Assembly: GCF_016775155.1 (NCBI RefSeq)
Contig: NZ_JAEUGD010000042.1
Location: forward strand, 434,001 to 498,000
Origin: Fulvivirga marina
GTDB lineage: Bacteria > Bacteroidota > Bacteroidia > Cytophagales > Cyclobacteriaceae
Direction of reading: 5' to 3'
DNA: 64,000 bases
Shown here one piece after another: positions 8,645-17,218 of this stretch; position 1 is the first letter of the stretch, and the number at the start of each line of letters is the position of its first letter. The notes beneath the pieces were generated by a model. It was not told the origin of the DNA, made no database searches, and saw only the letters and a list, made by a program, of their open reading frames with translations. The translations under genes and the position numbers were made by a program.

Positions 8645-9232
8645 CTACTCTTTTAATACCATATCTATGCACATTACAGCTGCCATGATCAGTATTCTTA
8701 TCGGGTTGTCACCGGGGATCTTTTCATCAATTTTAAGGACATAATTGTCCGCACTAGTAAACAGTTCCTTGCCAAGTCCAGCCCATTTTTTGCTTACATG
8801 AGCCATTTCAATATCATCTTTTACAAATTTGAAATCCCAACTGGTCCACTTGCCCTTGAGCGTGCATAGATGGTTCTCTTTAGCATCTAGTACTTTAAAT
8901 TTACCGCCAATTGAGAAAAACTGTTGTTTAAACTTTCCTATGAGTTTCTCATTCTCATCAAATACTTCAACAGTGGAGACAAAGAAGGAGACTCCACGCT
9001 TTACAGTAAGAACTTTATCACCTGTGGGAGTTTTGATTTCTACGTGAAATGGAGTCATTCTCTTATAATCCGTAAATCGTAGCAATTTTGTGAAAAATCC
9101 TAATTTTTCTTCTCTGCAATTCATTATAATCTGCTGAGTGTCCGGGTCGTATATATCATAATTGTTGGCTGCTTTAAACATACCAACGTGTTCTTTTACT
9201 AGGAATAAGTTTTGACTTAGGGTAGTGTTCAT
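8645..9232 (-). CDS. LURP-one/scramblase-related protein
   Basis: A 195-residue protein with the tubby-like beta-strand layout of the LURP-one-related and phospholipid scramblase-related group. Features seen are the opening LVKEHVGMFKAANNYDIYD, a central FFVSTVEVFDENEKLIGKFKQQ strand pair, GKFKVLDAKEN, and a hydrophobic C-terminal helix (IRILIMAAVMCIDMVL) that could insert in the membrane. No signal peptide is seen. Bacterial members are poorly characterised; a role in lipid binding or membrane homeostasis is only inferred from the fold. It reads in the same direction as the upstream SiaC-like gene but is separated by 171 bp, so it may be a separate unit. Confidence 0.7.
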   Translation of the reverse strand: MNTTLSQNLFLVKEHVGMFKAANNYDIYDPDTQQIIMNCREEKLGFFTKLLRFTDYKRMTPFHVEIKTPTGDKVLTVKRGVSFFVSTVEVFDENEKLIGKFKQQFFSIGGKFKVLDAKENHLCTLKGKWTSWDFKFVKDDIEMAHVSKKWAGLGKELFTSADNYVLKIDEKIPGDNPIRILIMAAVMCIDMVLKE

Positions 9233-9403: not shown

Positions 9404-9808
9404 TTACATTTCTTCTTCCATTTCATATTCGATCATATTAATTTCCAGGCCGCTTTCCTCCATAAAGTCTTCACCTTCCATTAATACTTCCTCATCGTCA
9501 GGGTCAGGGTAATGCCAGTTTACAGTTACTCCTTTTCCTTCGTCCCCATGGCCTTTTAATACTCTTAACATTTCAAGAATAGCTCTTGAAGAACTGGTGT
9601 TGAAGTAAGTCAACTTTAGATCTAGTTGAAGGCTTTTGTTTCCTTCAGCGAAAAAATCAGAAAACCAAGCCGAGATCTTTTCATAAAACTCAAACGGCTC
9701 TTCGAGGTATGATTCACCTGTAATGCTACAAATACCTGTCTCGGCATTTAATTTTACATGCGGGGTGAAGTACGTGTCTCTACTTCCTTCAATAATTAAA
9801 TTCTGCAT
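9404..9808 (-). CDS. SiaC-family regulatory phosphoprotein (DUF1987)
   Basis: A 134-residue protein of the SiaC/DUF1987 family. In Pseudomonas aeruginosa, SiaC is phosphorylated by the SiaB kinase, dephosphorylated by the SiaA phosphatase, and in the unphosphorylated state activates a diguanylate cyclase. The segment LTYFNTSSSRAILEM (about residues 66-80) matches the family's phosphosite region, with Thr71 the likely phosphoacceptor by position. TPHVKLNAETGICSITGESYLE is the N-terminal family signature. The acidic tail (MIEYEMEEEM) is short. It starts 3 bp after the kinase stop, so the two are co-translated. No GGDEF protein occurs in the window, so its effector is unknown. Confidence 0.85.
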   Translation of the reverse strand: MQNLIIEGSRDTYFTPHVKLNAETGICSITGESYLEEPFEFYEKISAWFSDFFAEGNKSLQLDLKLTYFNTSSSRAILEMLRVLKGHGDEGKGVTVNWHYPDPDDEEVLMEGEDFMEESGLEINMIEYEMEEEM

Positions 9809-9811
9809 ATT

Positions 9812-10372
9812 TTATAAGGTTTGCTGTTTTAATACATTTACTGATATTGTGAAAAAGGAGTGCTCTTTGTCTACTTCTTTAATGTCAAGTTCCAAAGGCA
9901 GGTCTGATTTTAACGCAACTTGTATCAAGCCTATATTTCCCCCTTTGTGGTTGGCTTTTATTTCGCTGCTTCTGTACTCACGTTTCATGGCTCGCAGGCC
10001 CTCATGGTCCAGATTGTTTATTTCTTCACATTTTTCTACAATTTGTTTCAGTACATCATTTTTAACCAAATTCCCTGAAATCAAAATGTAAGATTCTTTT
10101 GTTTCATAAACTGCTATTGTACCAACACCCCATTTCAAGCCAGACTCTAACTGATTTTTTTCGGCAGAGTATAGGGAAATGTTTTGTGCAAGTTCCATAA
10201 AAACGGAAAAGAGCCTGTGCCCTATTTTGGGAGGATCAAAAATCTTTTTCCTGATTTTTGTGCCTATCTCAGATAAAATAATCTCATCAAATGGGCCCTT
10301 GTAGTAGACTATTATGTTCCGATTCATGCTACTATAGAAATCGACAAGGTTCTCGTATTTTTGATTTTCCAT
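9812..10372 (-). CDS. SiaB-family protein kinase (DUF6272)
   Basis: A 186-residue cytosolic protein resembling SiaB, a GHKL-fold kinase of the anti-sigma-factor type that phosphorylates SiaC. The helix RLFSVFMELAQNISLYSAEK holds the N-box-like Glu/Asn pair expected for ATP-Mg binding, and HKGGNIGLIQVALKS resembles the glycine-rich lid of the fold. It lies between the SpoIIE phosphatase (40 bp upstream) and SiaC-like gene (3 bp downstream), reproducing the phosphatase-kinase-target order of the siaABC set. Sequence identity to the Pseudomonas protein could not be measured here; the assignment rests on motif, size and context. Confidence 0.78.
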   Translation of the reverse strand: MENQKYENLVDFYSSMNRNIIVYYKGPFDEIILSEIGTKIRKKIFDPPKIGHRLFSVFMELAQNISLYSAEKNQLESGLKWGVGTIAVYETKESYILISGNLVKNDVLKQIVEKCEEINNLDHEGLRAMKREYRSSEIKANHKGGNIGLIQVALKSDLPLELDIKEVDKEHSFFTISVNVLKQQTL

Positions 10373-10412
10373 TTAATATTAATTTATAGCTAGTTTAAAA
10401 AATTTATTTGCG

Positions 10413-12983
10413 TCAAACCCTTATGGCTATAAGAGTGATATCATCCCTTTGCTCGGCATCTTTTTTATGATCAGCCAATGCATTTTCGAATTTTTGTTTT
10501 TGGGATTGAAGGTCTAGGTGATTTACTTCCTCAATAAGTGATTTGAATCTTTTCTTGTTAAACCGCTTTCTGTTAGGGTTGTTTTGATCGATATACCCAT
10601 CTGTGGTTAGGTAAAGTGTTGCGCCTTTGGATAATTCCAATGTCTTATTTGTAAAGTTCCTTTGGGCTGTAGTGTTGGCTCCACCTATTGATTTTCTATC
10701 TCCATCGATCTCTAGTAGTTCTCCTTCATTCACAATGAATAGGGTATGCTTTGCACCCGCATAGGTTAATTTTACCTTTTCATTGCCATTAGGCTCGATT
10801 ACACATATACCCAGGTCCATACCATCATGGTTTTGGGTTTCTGTCTGACTCAGTTTTCTCCTTATGCCCTCATGTAATTGGTTAAGAGCCTCGGCAGGGT
10901 TGGTTACCCCTTTTTGATCTATTATTTCATTTAGGGTTGTACTGCCTATTACAGACATAAGTGCTCCGGGTACTCCATGGCCAGTACAGTCAACAATGGA
11001 GACTATTTTTTTTCCATTAACTTCTTCCATTCTATAGAAATCACCGGAGACAATGTCCTTTGGCATATAAGTGATGAAGTTATCAGGGAATAGTTTACTC
11101 TTTATACTGCTGGATGGAAGTATAGAACTCTGTATGCGTTGAGCATATTGAATACTAAAGGTAATCTTTCTGTTTTGTACTTCCAGTTGCCCTTTTTGTT
11201 GTTCCAATACATCCTGAGTGGCCTGAAGTTCTTCCATGTTTTGTTGAAGCTCTTCGTTCTTCTCTGTGATTTCAAACTGCTGGGCCTTAAGCATTTTGTT
11301 GGCCTTTCGTTTTTGAACAAAGCTGAAAATAATTATTCCAAGAATCAGAGCAAATAAGCCAAACATCCAATAGGTATACTTGAGTTGTTCGCTTTGTAGT
11401 TTTTTGTCAGCTTCCAAAAGCTGTATAGCCTTTTTCTGTTTCTCATCTTCCAGTGCTTTTCTTTTCAATTCAAGGTTTTGAAGCTCCTTTTCTTTTTCCA
11501 GAGATATTAATTCTCTATTCTTTTTCTCAGTTTCAAGTTGCTGTTGTGCAAGAGCCAGAGCCTGCTCGGTTCGCTCTTTTTCCAACAACTGGTTTTTGTA
11601 CTCAATTTCTCTGAGTTCCTGATCACGTTTGAGTAGAGCCAGCTCTTTTTCTTTAAGTTTTATTTCATTTTCCTTCCGCTCGTCTTCCACTGCTTGTCTT
11701 TCTTCTTCGGCAAGCAATGTTTTAATCTCTTCCTCATTTCTTTCTATTTCCAGCTGCTTTTTGAGCATTAGCTGCTCTCTTTCCTTCTCTTGATCTTTAA
11801 GCTTTTCATCGAGCTTTTTATGCAGTTCCAGATACTTTTTAGCTTTAGCAGTATTATTATCCATCGTATAGATCATATGGAGGATCTTGTAGCTTGTTAG
11901 TAAAACTTCTTCAGCCTGTAATGGCTCTGCTAGTTCGATTGCATCAGTAACAGATTTTAAAGCCTGGGAAATATTTCCGCTGATATAGTAATTACCTGCC
12001 AGGTAGTTTTTTGTGTTGGCTATTTCTATCTGGTTTTCTTCTTTTTCTCTGATCTTTAGAGCTATTTGATAGTTTTCTTTGGCTCTGGTGTATGACTTTA
12101 AGGTGGTGAAGGCTACCCCAACATTAATATGTAGCAGGGCTTTGTCACTTTCCTTAAGGTTTTCAGGTTGTTTGCTAACCAGCTCTGTTACCATATTAAA
12201 GTAGTCCAGTGATGTTTTTAAATCGCCGGTTCGTTTATGTATAAAACCTATGTTGTTATAAGCTGATGACAGCGCTACCAGATCATTTTCCTTTTTATAA
12301 ACCTCTACTAACTTGGTATTGTATTTTAAGGCTGATCGATACTGGTTGTTTAACTCGCTTAGTAAAGAAAGTTCCTTGTACGTTTCTATAACTTTATCCT
12401 TGTTCCCTGTTCTCTCATACTCAGATAGCAACTTAGTCTCTGTCGACATGGCATGAGGATAGTCTTCCAACTGTTTATATGAGTAGGCAATATTTTCTAA
12501 TAATACTATGCGCAGATGTGGTTTACTTTTGATTTCAAGAGCTTTCTTAAAAGCCTTTTCAAAGTAGCTTATGGCCTGGTTGTGGGCGTCCTGGTTTTGA
12601 TATAAACTCCCGATATCAATAAGCGTATTGATATTCATTTGCGGGTTATTTAGTAGATCAAAAGCCTGAATAGCCACAAAATAGTATTTCAAAGCCTCAT
12701 TGTATTCTTTTTTCTCAGTGTAGGCTTTTCCTAATACCTGACTGCTGTTTGCTTCCCCGGTAAGGTAAGATGCCTTTTTAGCGAGCTCATAGGCATTTCT
12801 GGCTGTTGAAATTGCCAGGTCAAAACTCTTCTGTTTAAGGAGACCTTGAGCTTCATTAAGTAATCGTGCTGATTTTACAGAATCTGTAGCCTCATTTTCC
12901 TGAGCCATGGCATTAAATTGTATCGTTACCGCCAGTAAAGAGGTAAGGCCGAGGAGTAAAGGATGAAATATTTTTATGTTCAT
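10413..12983 (-). CDS. TPR/coiled-coil SpoIIE-family serine phosphatase
   Basis: An 856-residue membrane protein with a signal sequence (cleavage near AMAQ), about eight tetratricopeptide repeats (about residues 35-380), and a Lys/Glu-rich coiled coil of about 150 residues. A single membrane helix (YTYWMFGLFALILGIIIFSF) and a second short coiled coil follow. The C-terminal PP2C-like SpoIIE domain (about 610-856) has PKDIVSGDFY, DCTGHGVPGALMS, LTYAGAKHTLF and QRDDITLIAIRV, including the metal-binding aspartates. The TPR part would be periplasmic and the phosphatase cytosolic. It takes the SiaA position, with TPR sensing in place of the HAMP-type input of Pseudomonas SiaA. The likely substrate is the SiaC-like protein two genes on. 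It begins 20 bp after the TonB-dependent receptor gene. Confidence 0.9.
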   Translation of the reverse strand: MNIKIFHPLLLGLTSLLAVTIQFNAMAQENEATDSVKSARLLNEAQGLLKQKSFDLAISTARNAYELAKKASYLTGEANSSQVLGKAYTEKKEYNEALKYYFVAIQAFDLLNNPQMNINTLIDIGSLYQNQDAHNQAISYFEKAFKKALEIKSKPHLRIVLLENIAYSYKQLEDYPHAMSTETKLLSEYERTGNKDKVIETYKELSLLSELNNQYRSALKYNTKLVEVYKKENDLVALSSAYNNIGFIHKRTGDLKTSLDYFNMVTELVSKQPENLKESDKALLHINVGVAFTTLKSYTRAKENYQIALKIREKEENQIEIANTKNYLAGNYYISGNISQALKSVTDAIELAEPLQAEEVLLTSYKILHMIYTMDNNTAKAKKYLELHKKLDEKLKDQEKEREQLMLKKQLEIERNEEEIKTLLAEEERQAVEDERKENEIKLKEKELALLKRDQELREIEYKNQLLEKERTEQALALAQQQLETEKKNRELISLEKEKELQNLELKRKALEDEKQKKAIQLLEADKKLQSEQLKYTYWMFGLFALILGIIIFSFVQKRKANKMLKAQQFEITEKNEELQQNMEELQATQDVLEQQKGQLEVQNRKITFSIQYAQRIQSSILPSSSIKSKLFPDNFITYMPKDIVSGDFYRMEEVNGKKIVSIVDCTGHGVPGALMSVIGSTTLNEIIDQKGVTNPAEALNQLHEGIRRKLSQTETQNHDGMDLGICVIEPNGNEKVKLTYAGAKHTLFIVNEGELLEIDGDRKSIGGANTTAQRNFTNKTLELSKGATLYLTTDGYIDQNNPNRKRFNKKRFKSLIEEVNHLDLQSQKQKFENALADHKKDAEQRDDITLIAIRV

Positions 12984-13003
12984 TTTATGAAAATCTTGAG
13001 GTT

Positions 13004-15079
13004 TTAAAATTTGATTTTTGCTCCGATGAGATATATCCCAGGTATATCGTCGGCAAAAATGAACTCTTTGCTTTTAGAGCCGATGGGGTTCCGCACATTG
13101 ATGAATAATGCGTTTTCCTGCCACACTTTGTATGAAACCTTTAGCGCAGGGAGCAGCTTGGCGGGTATTTTTCGAATTCCGTTCAAAGCGACCATTTCAT
13201 GTTGGCCAAAGGCATAGAGGCTGACTGCAATATTTAGTTTGTCAAGCATGGTCCTGTAATTGGCGGTTATTCCTCCAAAGTATTTAGGGGAAAGGCCAGA
13301 GCCAGAGGCAGTAGTGTCATTGTCAAAGCGGGTGCTCTGGAACGTTGCAAACGTATGAACTTTGAGCTTTCCTGATATTTTTGCTGTAAGGTTTACTGTT
13401 ATGCCATTCCTCTTCAATATTACCGATGAGTTAACGATTTGGCTGTTAATGGTATCGTTATTTACAGCAGCGATTATCGGTATTTGGCTATTAGAATTTT
13501 GAACGTGAAAATAATCAACTCCTAAGATGATCTTATCAGTAACATTTATCCGTGTACCAAGGCTGTAACTTTTAGATATAGCTACGTCAAGGTCATTGTT
13601 GATGATATTTCTTATAACTGAGCCATCCGCATTTGTTATTGTACTTTCGTTGAAAGCATTATTGGCAAATTCACCTTGGTTTCCCTTTGCGTAAGAAGCT
13701 CTTACCAGCACCTTTTTGATGGGTGTATACGCTGCTGCTGTCTGGTAACTTACTACGGACTGGTCATCGTAAAGGTCGTAGCTTATGCCTCCATCCAATG
13801 TCAATTTTTTCTCTAGAAATGATGCATTAGTTTTAAGAAATCCCCCATAGTATGTCAGGTCTTTTTTTCCATTAATGATGTTAGGGTAGGCATTGTCATC
13901 CGAAGTTTGTTTTGAGTCATCAAACATTGAAGACTGATACCTTAAACCGGGGGTTAATGTAAGCCCCTTCATTGAATGGTTATAAAATACCCTGGTGTTG
14001 ATTTTGTCTACTTCAAAACTGTATCCGGGATAACCCACGGCGAGATTTTGATCAGCAGTGATATAAGACGCCTGAAAGTGCAGGTTGCTCCATCGGGTAT
14101 TTAAATTGAGAAACTGTGAAGACGATGAACGTCTTGTGAAGGTCAGTTCTTCAAAACTATAATGTACACTTTGTGCTTCTGAGTCCTGAGAGGAGATAGA
14201 TACATTGATGTCTGTGTTGTCATTGGGAGAATACTGAACAAAGGCATTTATACCCATATCCTGTCTGGCGAGAGTACCATAGAGGTTGGTTTCTTCTACA
14301 TTAGATTGGAAGAAGAGTAAAGAGTCGGCTGGAATGTACCTGTTCTCGCTGGCCACATAGTATTCATCCTGAAATCTCCTGGTGTCGATATATTTTCCCG
14401 ACAACCTAACCAGTACTTTGTCATTAATGCCGAAACCTATCGCAGCATTGTTGACCAATGTGTGTGGTGTACCACCCTGAATGTTAGCAGTTACACTGAG
14501 GCTGTTGCTCTCCGGTTTTCTAGTGATAATATTAATAAAGCCATTGGCTGCATCACGTCCGAATAGCACAGAGGAAGGTCCTGCCACTATTTCAATTTTT
14601 TCGACATCACCTAATGTTATTGGTAGAGTTTCCCAAAAAATGCCTCCTGTAAAGTGATCATTTACAGGCATGTTGTCAATCATTACCAACGCCATGCTGC
14701 TTTTGTACTGAAAAAGACCTGTTTGTCCTGGAATATTATCTGTGCCTAATAGGTGTACTTCATACAGGCCATTAGTTTTTTGCCTGACAAGTAAGCCCGG
14801 AGCCAGCCGTAAAGCTTCAGGTATGGTGAGAGTACCTGCGTTTTCAATTTCCTCACGGGTAATTACGTATGCCTGATAGGGTGTACGGTTTATATCTTCC
14901 TTATTGCCAGTGGCAGAAGAAATATGGACTGTGGCATCTCCTTCAAACTCCAGGTTAAGTATATCCTGATCTACAGTGAATCTATAAATATCATCGGTCG
15001 GTGTCTTTACATCTTCGTCTTGAGCAAAAGCAGACCCTGTTAATAGCACCAGTATTAAGGTGAAATATTTGATTTTCAT
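13004..15079 (-). CDS. TonB-dependent outer-membrane receptor
   Basis: A 691-residue TonB-dependent receptor. The start at 15079 places a clean signal peptide first (MKIKYFTLILVLLTG, cleavage near AFAQ); an upstream in-frame codon adds 12 residues without purpose. The plug domain (about 55-200) shows YVITREEIENAGTLTIPEAL, LVMIDNMPVN and VEIVAGPSSVLFGRDAANG, followed by a beta-barrel ending in a terminal Phe. It lacks the carboxypeptidase-like N-terminal domain of SusC proteins and has no SusD beside it. Instead it lies 23 bp after an FN3/RHS-like lipoprotein gene and 20 bp before a SpoIIE phosphatase gene. The ligand is unknown; a signalling role is an inference from context. Confidence 0.9.
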   Translation of the reverse strand: MKIKYFTLILVLLTGSAFAQDEDVKTPTDDIYRFTVDQDILNLEFEGDATVHISSATGNKEDINRTPYQAYVITREEIENAGTLTIPEALRLAPGLLVRQKTNGLYEVHLLGTDNIPGQTGLFQYKSSMALVMIDNMPVNDHFTGGIFWETLPITLGDVEKIEIVAGPSSVLFGRDAANGFINIITRKPESNSLSVTANIQGGTPHTLVNNAAIGFGINDKVLVRLSGKYIDTRRFQDEYYVASENRYIPADSLLFFQSNVEETNLYGTLARQDMGINAFVQYSPNDNTDINVSISSQDSEAQSVHYSFEELTFTRRSSSSQFLNLNTRWSNLHFQASYITADQNLAVGYPGYSFEVDKINTRVFYNHSMKGLTLTPGLRYQSSMFDDSKQTSDDNAYPNIINGKKDLTYYGGFLKTNASFLEKKLTLDGGISYDLYDDQSVVSYQTAAAYTPIKKVLVRASYAKGNQGEFANNAFNESTITNADGSVIRNIINNDLDVAISKSYSLGTRINVTDKIILGVDYFHVQNSNSQIPIIAAVNNDTINSQIVNSSVILKRNGITVNLTAKISGKLKVHTFATFQSTRFDNDTTASGSGLSPKYFGGITANYRTMLDKLNIAVSLYAFGQHEMVALNGIRKIPAKLLPALKVSYKVWQENALFINVRNPIGSKSKEFIFADDIPGIYLIGAKIKF

Positions 15080-15102
15080 GATAAGAGAAAGTTTTGCTTT
15101 AT

Positions 15103-16452
15103 TTAAAAATTGCACCCGGTGAATTCGTATTGAAGTCCATAATACCCCCTTCTTTGATAGGCAACATCTCTTTCATTTATGTCGTAGATAAATACCTCTT
15201 CTTCAAAAAAACTAGGGTCACTAGGGATGAAGTTTCCTTTAGCGTAAACCGGGTTGCTAATACCATGGTATGGCCTGTGGGAAAATCCGCTGAAGTCATC
15301 AGTAATGAACTGTCGAATTCCGAATGGAATTAGCACTTTTGGGTTGAAATTAATATCGTACTTGAATTCACCTGTTTGTTGCCCGTCTGAATTTAACACT
15401 CTTGTAACATTGCCATCCTCGTCTAATTCGTAATCCTCGTAAATAAGGACATTTCCAATAGGGACATCATACTTGCGGAATCCTGTGAGCTGACTGTTGC
15501 TGTTATAGATGAATTCACTGACCTCGGAGGATGAATAAAGTGGTTTGAATGTTTCCATGGAGACTAGAACACCATCGGAATAGTTTAACTTATGCTCGGC
15601 AGTTAGAATGTTGGCATAGTAATACTTTACGCTATCCAAACGGTTATTGGCATCATAGTGTATGTCCCACCTTTCTAGGGCAGGAGAGCCTGTAAATGCA
15701 TAGTTGATGGTGCTAATTTGTCCGTCGCCGTTATAAGCGAAAGCAACTTCATAACCTGAAGGTTGTAAAATCCGGGAGAGTTTACAGTCTTTGGTAATAT
15801 AAGGATCAACCCTGACCACGTTAGAGTATGCCGAGGTTTTATTCAGGCGCTTGGTCAATACCCTATAGTAATACGTTAGTCTGTAATCCAAATCTTCGAC
15901 TAAAATGGAGTTTGTTATAACCTCCTTACGGTTGTAGGTGCTCAGTATATTCGTAAAGCCGGAGTCTGAGGCTACTTCTATCAGGTAGCTGGCAGCTTCA
16001 TCTACTGTATCCCAATTGGCTACAAACTCAAATACTTTTTGGTCAGAAGCATTCAGAGCAACGGGAGCAGGTAACAAGCCTGTTTCAACTGAAATTATAT
16101 TCGAGTTACCAGAGATGGTATTACCCTTCTTAGCCCTGACCCGGTAATAGTAAGTTTCTTCCACAGATAGGCCGTTGACAATAACGGATGTGCTATGTAT
16201 TTCCAGGGACTGGAATCCGCTAACGAAGCTTGCGAAGTCGGAGTCAGGAGAGACATCTATATAATAAATATCACTGCCTAATACAGGCTCCCAAGATGCT
16301 GTGAAATTAGCAGAAGTGATATCTGTTGCTTCAAGGGCAATTGGGGTTGGTTGGATAAAATTGGTTTCTTGAAGTTCACAGCCAGCTGAAAAAGCTAATA
16401 AAACACTGATAAGCAGTGCGTAAACCTTTCGGTTTAAATAGAATAGTGCCAT
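15103..16452 (-). CDS. lipoprotein with two fibronectin type III domains and RHS-like YD repeats
   Basis: A 449-residue lipoprotein. The start at 16452 gives a signal peptide ending FSAGC. Two tandem FN3-like domains (about residues 35-215) repeat the pattern ITSANFTASWEPV, YYIDVSPDSDF, ETYYYRVRAKKG and then FVANWDTVDEA, YLIEVASDSGF, LTYYYRVLTKR. The C-terminal half has repeats such as FAYNGDGQIS, HYDANNRLDSVKYY, FIYNSNSQLTGFRKY and YELDEDGNVTRV, the YD/RHS or DUF4595 style of beta-strand repeat, probably forming an extended surface shell. It is the first gene of the minus-strand unit leading into the TonB receptor and SiaABC-like genes. A surface partner of the receptor is the natural guess, without direct proof. 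Confidence 0.75.
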   Translation of the reverse strand: MALFYLNRKVYALLISVLLAFSAGCELQETNFIQPTPIALEATDITSANFTASWEPVLGSDIYYIDVSPDSDFASFVSGFQSLEIHSTSVIVNGLSVEETYYYRVRAKKGNTISGNSNIISVETGLLPAPVALNASDQKVFEFVANWDTVDEAASYLIEVASDSGFTNILSTYNRKEVITNSILVEDLDYRLTYYYRVLTKRLNKTSAYSNVVRVDPYITKDCKLSRILQPSGYEVAFAYNGDGQISTINYAFTGSPALERWDIHYDANNRLDSVKYYYANILTAEHKLNYSDGVLVSMETFKPLYSSSEVSEFIYNSNSQLTGFRKYDVPIGNVLIYEDYELDEDGNVTRVLNSDGQQTGEFKYDINFNPKVLIPFGIRQFITDDFSGFSHRPYHGISNPVYAKGNFIPSDPSFFEEEVFIYDINERDVAYQRRGYYGLQYEFTGCNF

Positions 16453-16607
16453 TTTACTATAGTATGTAGTTTTACTGTTCAAACTGAACGTTTTACAAAA
16501 AATGGGGCGATACAGAGCGACTCATTGACTCTTGGCGGGAGCTCCTCGCAATAGGAGTGCCAACTCGTTAAATGGTCGTAATGAAGTGATTTAAATGGGA
16601 AGGTAAG

Positions 16608-16762: not shown

Positions 16763-17218
16763 CTAGTGCAGGTCTTCCGCACTTTCATACTCAAGCCCTG
16801 GACCATCGCATATTTGCCAGGTTCCTATAAGTCTGTTTTTGTTGTCTACCCTAAGTAATTCTTTGGTGGCTGAAGTACAGCTTGCAACAAGATCGCTCTG
16901 GACTTTGTGAGTGAGTTCCAGGTACTCTCCATCTGAAAGGTTAACATACTGGTATGTCCCGGTAGCTTTTTGTGTTTGATTATCCTGTATACGGGTTTTT
17001 AAGAAGGTTCCATCCGGTTTTAGGGAAATAGTTTCCTGCCAGGCCATATCGTTTCCAGTTGTTTCGGAGCCTTTAAGGCTTCCTGACATTTGAACGAGTC
17101 TCCACTCTTTTATTTTTTGTTCGGCTTCTGAGTTTGGTTTTTCGGAATCCATATTATTATCTGTTGAACAGGAAAACAAACTTCCAATTGAAATAAGAAA
17201 TAACAAAATTAGTTTCAT
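16763..17218 (-). CDS. small lipoprotein, lipocalin-like
   Basis: A 151-residue protein with a lipoprotein signal (lipobox LFSC, Cys17). The mature part has a strand pattern like the lipocalin-like family common in Bacteroidota: KEWRLVQMSGSLKG, ISLKPDGTFLKTRI, ATGTYQYVNLSDGEYLELTH, and a final GTWQICDGPGLEYESA with a Cys that may pair with the earlier SCTS. No catalytic motif is seen, and the function is unknown. It stands alone, with its own terminator and about 1.1 kb of gene-poor DNA upstream. Confidence 0.7.
   Translation of the reverse strand: MKLILLFLISIGSLFSCSTDNNMDSEKPNSEAEQKIKEWRLVQMSGSLKGSETTGNDMAWQETISLKPDGTFLKTRIQDNQTQKATGTYQYVNLSDGEYLELTHKVQSDLVASCTSATKELLRVDNKNRLIGTWQICDGPGLEYESAEDLH

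Follow-up and report, generated by a model that had tools for sequence, protein, structure and literature searches.

A conserved lipoprotein–receptor–phosphatase module and its SiaB/SiaC partners in Fulvivirga marina: a candidate phosphorylation switch across the envelope

Can a TonB-dependent receptor at the outer membrane set the state of a phosphorylation switch in the cytoplasm? The question is raised by a locus of Fulvivirga marina, a run of five minus-strand genes within a 64,000-nucleotide stretch of contig NZ_JAEUGD010000042.1 (positions 434,001 to 498,000; hereafter the window), which encodes, 5' to 3', a lipoprotein, a TonB-dependent receptor, a SpoIIE (PP2C) phosphatase, a SiaB-family kinase, and a SiaC-family phosphoprotein. 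The known signalling routes of TonB-dependent receptors use either STN domains that act on anti-sigma factors or two-component sensors, and in open-licence PubMed Central we recognised no description of such a receptor coupled to a SpoIIE phosphatase or to SiaC-type proteins in Bacteroidota. Judged from gene content, the conserved core is the lipoprotein, receptor, and phosphatase, with SiaB and SiaC as a looser partner attached in part of the family. We consider it probable that the locus encodes a receptor-driven partner switch across the envelope, in which the receptor/lipoprotein pair would set a membrane-spanning phosphatase that acts on SiaC, itself directed at a target other than a GGDEF protein. 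Behind this reading stand the gene order, the protein families, their conservation, the catalytic and phosphosite residues, and the lack of a GGDEF match; from these we infer the topology, the receptor–phosphatase contact, the direction of the signal, and the output. A conserved receptor–lipoprotein–PP2C module would represent another route across the Gram-negative envelope.

Conservation of the five-gene order and its core

The layout given in the original prediction, with spacings of 23, 20, 40, and 3 bp in the order listed above, was confirmed from open reading frames with ATG starts (the mechanical starts lie upstream, at a GTG at 15115 for the receptor and a TTG at 16482 for the lipoprotein). 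Its assignments for receptor, phosphatase, SiaB, and SiaC were borne out by Pfam, NCBIfam, and structure matches: SpoIIE (2.7e-23) and TPR_12 (5e-24) for the phosphatase, DUF6272 (4.3e-35) for the SiaB-gene product, which also passed the SiaB-family kinase model NF038262 (142.5 bits versus a cut-off of 85), and SiaC (3.7e-35) for the SiaC-gene product. Scores fell below the NCBIfam equivalog cut-offs (SiaC, 89.9 versus 150; SiaA, 210.8 versus 700; SiaB, 76.3 versus 225 bits), so the window proteins are relatives, not equivalogs, of Pseudomonas SiaA, SiaB, and SiaC. The lipoprotein had been called FN3/RHS-like; two FN3 domains are supported by Pfam (fn3, 7.7e-10) and a structure model, whereas RHS is a weak sequence label (7.6e-5), the C-terminal part of the model resembling the Bacteroides 'porin-like' protein BACUNI_01323. 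Its Cys25 is invariant (8/8 aligned). At other loci this protein is longer: that of Catalimonadaceae bacterium JC749 (locus L049) has 1012 amino acids with five fn3 stretches, and those of L079 and L080 have 1300 and 1310.

The five genes occur in the same order in eight genomes of three genera, this one counted, with receptor identity down to 31%. Within the genus (15 genomes), a close receptor orthologue was found in three (100, 79, and 77% identity), all with the five genes in order; in the family (390 genomes), five further genomes share that order—four from a single genus at about 50% receptor identity, one of them Ohtaekwangia koreensis, and the fifth Catalimonadaceae bacterium JC749 at 31%. 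Recurrence over such distances indicates that the arrangement is more than chance, and the expectation that receptor and lipoprotein genes would lie beside SiaABC in relatives was not refuted, with all five genes present in 8/8 closest-type loci, this one included. Across the order (390 genomes), where the receptors of this type are more distant, the lipoprotein, receptor, and phosphatase genes also stand together without adjacent SiaB and SiaC in genomes G480, G434 (twice), G485 (twice), G543, and G440, which lends independent support to the tie among the three. Because these envelope genes persist without adjacent SiaB and SiaC, we rejected 'a SiaABC operon with two extra genes' as a full description. 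Thus, the five-gene unit first proposed does recur, but the wider conserved unit is the receptor plus phosphatase, with SiaB and SiaC looser; the finding is real and broader than first stated, and the overall interpretation is partly supported. A search of genome contigs returned seven module loci, six of them already in our set, and two matches in Marinifilum confined to the plug region.

We compared receptors of this type with their relatives, using 43 places from the family search and 34 from the order search (4 shared), the genus-search receptors, and one second receptor, 80 in all after filtering. Limits were E 1e-66 (family search) and, by profile, 1e-100 (order search), genus-search receptors excepted; both searches scored at most two candidates per genome and so gave a non-exhaustive set, a host paralogue at C37:382648 lying outside the family-search set, and three receptors under a 150-bit limit, each with a YfiR-like neighbour, were dropped (L035 and L036 in G002, L037 in G009). 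A receptor was called window-type when closer to the window receptor than to its two paralogues (18/80). A SpoIIE protein with TPR and long stalk lies on the same strand within two genes of 17 of these 18 receptors, compared with 2 of the other 62 (Fisher's p 2.9e-14, relatedness ignored); split TPR–SpoIIE pieces, which adjoin the receptors of L093 and L164, were not scored as intact phosphatases. The lipoprotein accompanies 16 of the 18 (at L085, in G516, the contig ends where it is expected), and SiaC is adjacent in 8. Among the other 62, we counted no such lipoprotein, one SiaC gene, 13 YfiR proteins, and six propeller histidine kinases (the latter two assignments checked with Pfam on one member each); that relatives outside the module often adjoin other signal transducers we count in favour of the partner switch. 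A tree built from 54 of the 80 receptors places the 18 window-type ones on one side of a branch with a Shimodaira–Hasegawa-like approximate likelihood ratio (SH-aLRT) of 100, and same-strand pairing requires two changes; the two paired non-module receptors, L158 and L160, are not in the tree and would add changes. Paralogous receptors (L020:3252-10119, L027, L028, L031, and L032) adjoin a YfiR/HmsC-like gene and a divergent sensor kinase, in genomes with no GGDEF match.

These counts bear on two other accounts. The receptor and lipoprotein genes might be mere neighbours, sharing a transcript without working with the switch, and indeed the partner switch has a gene-level basis; yet with the gene order held to such low identity and across several families, and with a pairing bias of this size (uncorrected for relatedness), we judge mere proximity very improbable. 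Alternatively, the signal could run in reverse, with SiaABC sensing inside the cell and the receptor and lipoprotein serving as outputs for uptake or adhesion once SiaC is dephosphorylated. Co-transcription would fit this equally well, and Pseudomonas SiaABC controls aggregation (PMC7647112). Against it, receptor and phosphatase stay paired at loci without adjacent SiaB and SiaC, none of the five proteins matches a DNA-binding family in Pfam, and in 16/17 paired loci the receptor gene comes before that of the phosphatase, which says little alone; we regard the reverse direction as unlikely.

A putative route across the envelope

In the partner switch that we favour, the receptor and FN3 lipoprotein would recognise an external ligand or partner at the outer membrane; recognition would change a phosphatase that crosses the inner membrane, with a charged stalk holding its TPR domain out in the periplasm and its PP2C domain in the cytoplasm; the phosphatase would strip from SiaC Thr71 the phosphate placed by the SiaB-type kinase; and free SiaC would then bind and switch its target, which, if our searches are right, is not a GGDEF diguanylate cyclase. 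The flow of signal from receptor to phosphatase, already part of the original prediction, is suggested by gene context.

The PP2C domain of the phosphatase is closest to that of SiaA (6k4e, E 1.6e-41, also found by structure match). PMC7647112 gives the SiaA active-site residues as D457, D474, G477, D600, G601, and D653, and the whole set is kept—as D648, D665, G668, D795, G796, and D847 of the RDD motif—according to the 6k4e alignment and our own numbering map. In the structure model (mean predicted local distance difference test score, pLDDT, of 78), TPR helices span residues 54-374 and a long helix 378-494, with PP2C beyond the membrane segment, and a transmembrane-like segment is found in 17/17 module phosphatases. 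The TPR/helix part is predicted to be periplasmic from a hydrophobic segment at the N terminus and from basic residues that follow the transmembrane segment. In the host genome, five other SpoIIE proteins match this phosphatase with E of 1e-20 or better, every match being confined to the part from residue 529 onwards; at that threshold, the TPR/stalk half is thus without a close paralogue there.

The stalk, aligned from TPR end to transmembrane segment, measures 156 or 163 residues in 17/19 proteins, comprising 15 of the 17 module proteins and both L088 and L091, where the receptors are paralogues and the phosphatase gene is divergent, on the opposite strand; the exceptions are 153 and 157, and the two main lengths are seven residues apart. 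As one straight helix, 156-163 residues would extend about 23-24 nm, and the 23 nm of the shorter form is close to the width of the periplasm. Among other SpoIIE proteins, a charge-run rule returned 65, 70, and 74 residues for three that match the TPR profile and 49-50 for two that do not, a contrast that is weak because four module proteins with an aligned stalk of 163 scored just 58-61 by the same rule. We claim a long charged stalk and not a coiled coil, since no significant hydrophobic periodicity was found at 3.5 residues or in a scan of periods 3.2-4.0 (lowest, 32/300 shuffles, in L086).

How could the receptor reach this phosphatase? Structural matches to solved TonB receptors mostly cover the plug region, and among the 18 receptors a short peptide before the plug (residues 32-47) is as conserved as the plug itself (mean pairwise identity 0.46 versus 0.47), compared with 0.18 for residues 21-31, 0.34 for 48-62, and 0.33 for the barrel. 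Given this conservation, we propose that the peptide may be where the receptor contacts the TPR domain. A more specific and tentative version of the partner switch, possible but rather doubtful, is a direct line in which residues 32-47 dock in the TPR groove, the near-fixed-length stalk spans the periplasm, and the SiaC target is unrelated to cyclic di-GMP (c-di-GMP); if true, a surface ligand would change a cytoplasmic Ser/Thr phosphatase without a soluble messenger, two-component relay, or sigma factor.

A competing explanation, overlapping with the partner switch, is uptake-coupled sensing: the lipoprotein would capture a substrate for the receptor to import, and what the TPR domain senses would be that substrate or a periplasmic binding protein instead of the receptor, much as hybrid two-component sensors act in polysaccharide loci. 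In Bacteroidota, uptake pairs commonly consist of a lipoprotein and a TonB receptor; the window receptor has a plug domain, and a TonB-box-like stretch precedes the plug at about residues 48-56, recognised by eye in close orthologues and not in distant ones. SusC/SusD loci with hybrid sensors are composed in a similar way, a sensor that spans the inner membrane accompanying a TonB receptor and a lipoprotein, but family models do not place the module there—the receptor is far under the SusC/RagA signature cut-off (TIGR04057, 15.4 versus 46.2 bits) and the lipoprotein has no SusD family match in Pfam—and a phosphatase stands in place of the histidine kinase. Nor was a polysaccharide enzyme recognised among the subset of neighbours scanned with Pfam. 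We consider uptake-coupled sensing a rather improbable account.

Two further systems offer parallels. Like FecA–FecR–FecI, the module joins a TonB-dependent receptor to a linked inner-membrane relay (PMC9239204 for FecARI), but it has a short conserved peptide before the plug where FecA has an STN domain, and its relay is a phosphatase and not an anti-sigma/sigma pair; neither FecR nor FecI was found among eight proteins scanned with Pfam, a subset of the window genes. Pseudomonas YfiBNR resembles it in that an outer-membrane lipoprotein feeds a signalling system from the periplasm (PMC4655355), and relatives of the window receptor stand beside YfiR proteins; in contrast, no YfiR match was found in the module, and its cytoplasmic part is a phosphatase.

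Several observations weigh against the partner switch. Contact between receptor and phosphatase, or control of the latter by the former, is a suggestion from gene context. Pfam finds in the receptor none of the STN domain of known signalling receptors, the plug starting at residue 64. The lipoprotein export signal of Capnocytophaga, C-X-K-(D/E)2, is by our own reading not present in the window lipoprotein, so its surface exposure is only a possibility. An N-terminal hydrophobic segment exceeds our threshold in just 10/17 module phosphatases, leaving export of the TPR part insecure; the stalk is modelled as helical only to residue 494, with pLDDT of 31-70 beyond residue 400 and below 50 at 486-542; and 3.5-residue periodicity is significant in none of 19 stalks (lowest p 0.14). 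The association itself is imperfect: L086 (G493) has the receptor gene after the phosphatase and is the sole exception in gene order, L081 (G527) has a module-type receptor without such a phosphatase nearby, SiaC is not adjacent in 10/18 module loci, and non-module receptors sometimes have the phosphatase too—on the same strand at L158 and L160, on either strand in 4/62 with L088 and L091 added, and in pieces, on the same strand, at L164.

The SiaC phosphosite and the output question

The SiaB and SiaC proteins match chains A and C of 6kko, chain A being deposited as 'Putative serine phosphatase', which we take to be SiaB. Phosphorylation of P. aeruginosa SiaC falls on Thr68 (PMC7647112), and a phosphorylatable threonine in line with it, Thr71, is kept here within N-T-S-S. 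In the SiaC–SiaD structure, Thr68 inserts between the stalk helices of SiaD and phosphorylation blocks binding; the same source suggests that DUF1987 proteins modulate adjacent proteins (PMC8457831). By our own mapping of an alignment with a numbering offset of one, the SiaD-contact residues Y65, N67, T68, and S69 are kept, and five others are changed (I71 to S, M75 to L, D79 to R, R103 to E, and L107 to E). Retention of the phosphosite end of the contact with alteration of the rest is consistent with a SiaC target other than SiaD.

The host genome (6.8 Mb, estimated 100% complete) carries four SiaC and three SiaB genes and no GGDEF match, which strengthens the original claim that, with no GGDEF partner nearby, the output must differ or lie elsewhere. 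None scored over the Pfam cut-off in 28 genomes (the host included; 15 from the genus and 13 others with a module-type receptor, 26/28 at least 90% complete), whereas 8/14 control genomes were positive. SiaC is present in 15/15 genus genomes and in 16/16 module-receptor genomes, at 3 to 44 copies in the latter. We therefore consider diguanylate cyclase output very unlikely here and rejected c-di-GMP as the output. Given up to 44 SiaC-type genes per genome where no GGDEF passed the cut-off, a diguanylate cyclase cannot be the general output of the SiaC family. SiaABCD has been treated as a case in which PP2C and c-di-GMP signalling have merged (PMC9239204), and the P. aeruginosa system likewise has adjacent genes for a PP2C phosphatase, a SiaB-type kinase, and a SiaC with a phosphothreonine region (PMC7647112, PMC8457831). 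Such homology, together with one sub-cut-off GGDEF match in the module genome G222, is what would favour a module feeding c-di-GMP as in Pseudomonas. However, the sensor half here consists of TPR and long stalk, SiaA being matched only over its C-terminal part, the module is joined to a receptor and lipoprotein and lacks SiaD, and the partly changed SiaD-stalk contacts (in particular at D79, R103, L107, and I71) argue the same way as the GGDEF searches; this account is close to refuted.

What SiaC binds in these bacteria is thus a direct, testable question. By our own reading, no common output gene surrounds SiaC in G485 (33 loci, which account for most but not all of the 44 SiaC genes there) or in G480 (6 loci, all six of its genes). 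A tree that joins 65 SiaC sequences of the collected loci, with part of the G485 copies and unlinked copies of several module genomes left out, clusters the eight module SiaCs with nine others from G480 and G485 (SH-aLRT 99), genomes whose modules lack adjacent SiaB and SiaC; the SiaB tree (27 sequences) agrees in outline and is poorly resolved. SiaB and SiaC of L049 fall outside the group formed by the other seven. Where the SiaB/SiaC pair is not linked to the module, it may act from another genomic locus.

The family is itself varied. Single genomes G434 and G485 hold 42 and 44 SiaC-family genes, an expansion, and 24 of the 33 fetched G485 loci have no recognised SiaB or SpoIIE gene within about 3.6 kb. 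One protein of G480 is a SiaB–SiaC fusion (L120:5558-6601), and one of G485 has leucine-rich repeats ahead of its SiaC domain (L121:6528-7610). A second SiaABC locus of the host (L006:5790-15863; C37 near 562 kb) encodes a HAMP/GAF/PAS SpoIIE phosphatase, SiaB, and SiaC, followed by an ABC transporter that carries a TerB domain at its N terminus and is a candidate SiaC-linked partner. All four inspected genomes of the genus have this locus, as do G480 and G485 (also L040, L041, L042, L117, and L135); in the genus versions, genes upstream were read as CheB and CheR.

Feature coordinates and neighbouring genes

Table 1. Positions in the window of the five genes and of regions within their products.
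Feature	Position	Strand	Basis
Lipoprotein, 449 amino acids	15103..16452	-	Open reading frame from ATG; signal peptide and Cys25; residues about 30-218 form two FN3 domains and about 221-445 a C-terminal beta domain
Lipoprotein C-terminal domain	15118..15792	-	Fold like BACUNI_01323 (4ghb) and BVU_2266 (3tzg)
TonB-dependent receptor, 691 amino acids	13004..15079	-	ATG start; no STN domain found
Receptor conserved N-terminal peptide before plug, residues 32-47	14939..14986	-	Pairwise identity
TonB plug domain, receptor residues 64-180	14540..14890	-	PF07715, 1.1e-14
TPR / long helix / transmembrane / SpoIIE (PP2C) phosphatase, 856 amino acids	10413..12983	-	Pfam, structure match, model
TPR superhelix, phosphatase residues 54-374	11862..12824	-	Pfam and model; predicted periplasmic
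Charged stalk, phosphatase residues 378-533 (156 residues)	11385..11852	-	Model helical to residue 494
Transmembrane segment, phosphatase residues 534-559	11307..11384	-	Hydropathy
SpoIIE/PP2C catalytic domain, phosphatase residues 660-856	10416..11006	-	6k4e match; SiaA metal-site residues
SiaB-family kinase, 186 amino acids	9812..10372	-	Pfam, NCBIfam, 6kko_A match (E 5.7e-15)
SiaC-family phosphoprotein, 134 amino acids	9404..9808	-	Pfam, 6kko_C match (E 1.4e-17)
SiaC Thr71 codon	9596..9598	-	Aligned with Thr68 of P. aeruginosa SiaC

A promoter scan returned 16 sites versus 22.0 in shuffles, and its result was not used. Upstream of the operon, at 16763-17218, lies a small lipoprotein-like gene with no informative family match, found in G014 as well (67%). 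Downstream of SiaC, a scramblase-family gene at 8645-9232 has counterparts at 93-94% identity in the two other operon-bearing genomes of the genus; at L045-L048, its position instead holds another gene on the opposite strand.

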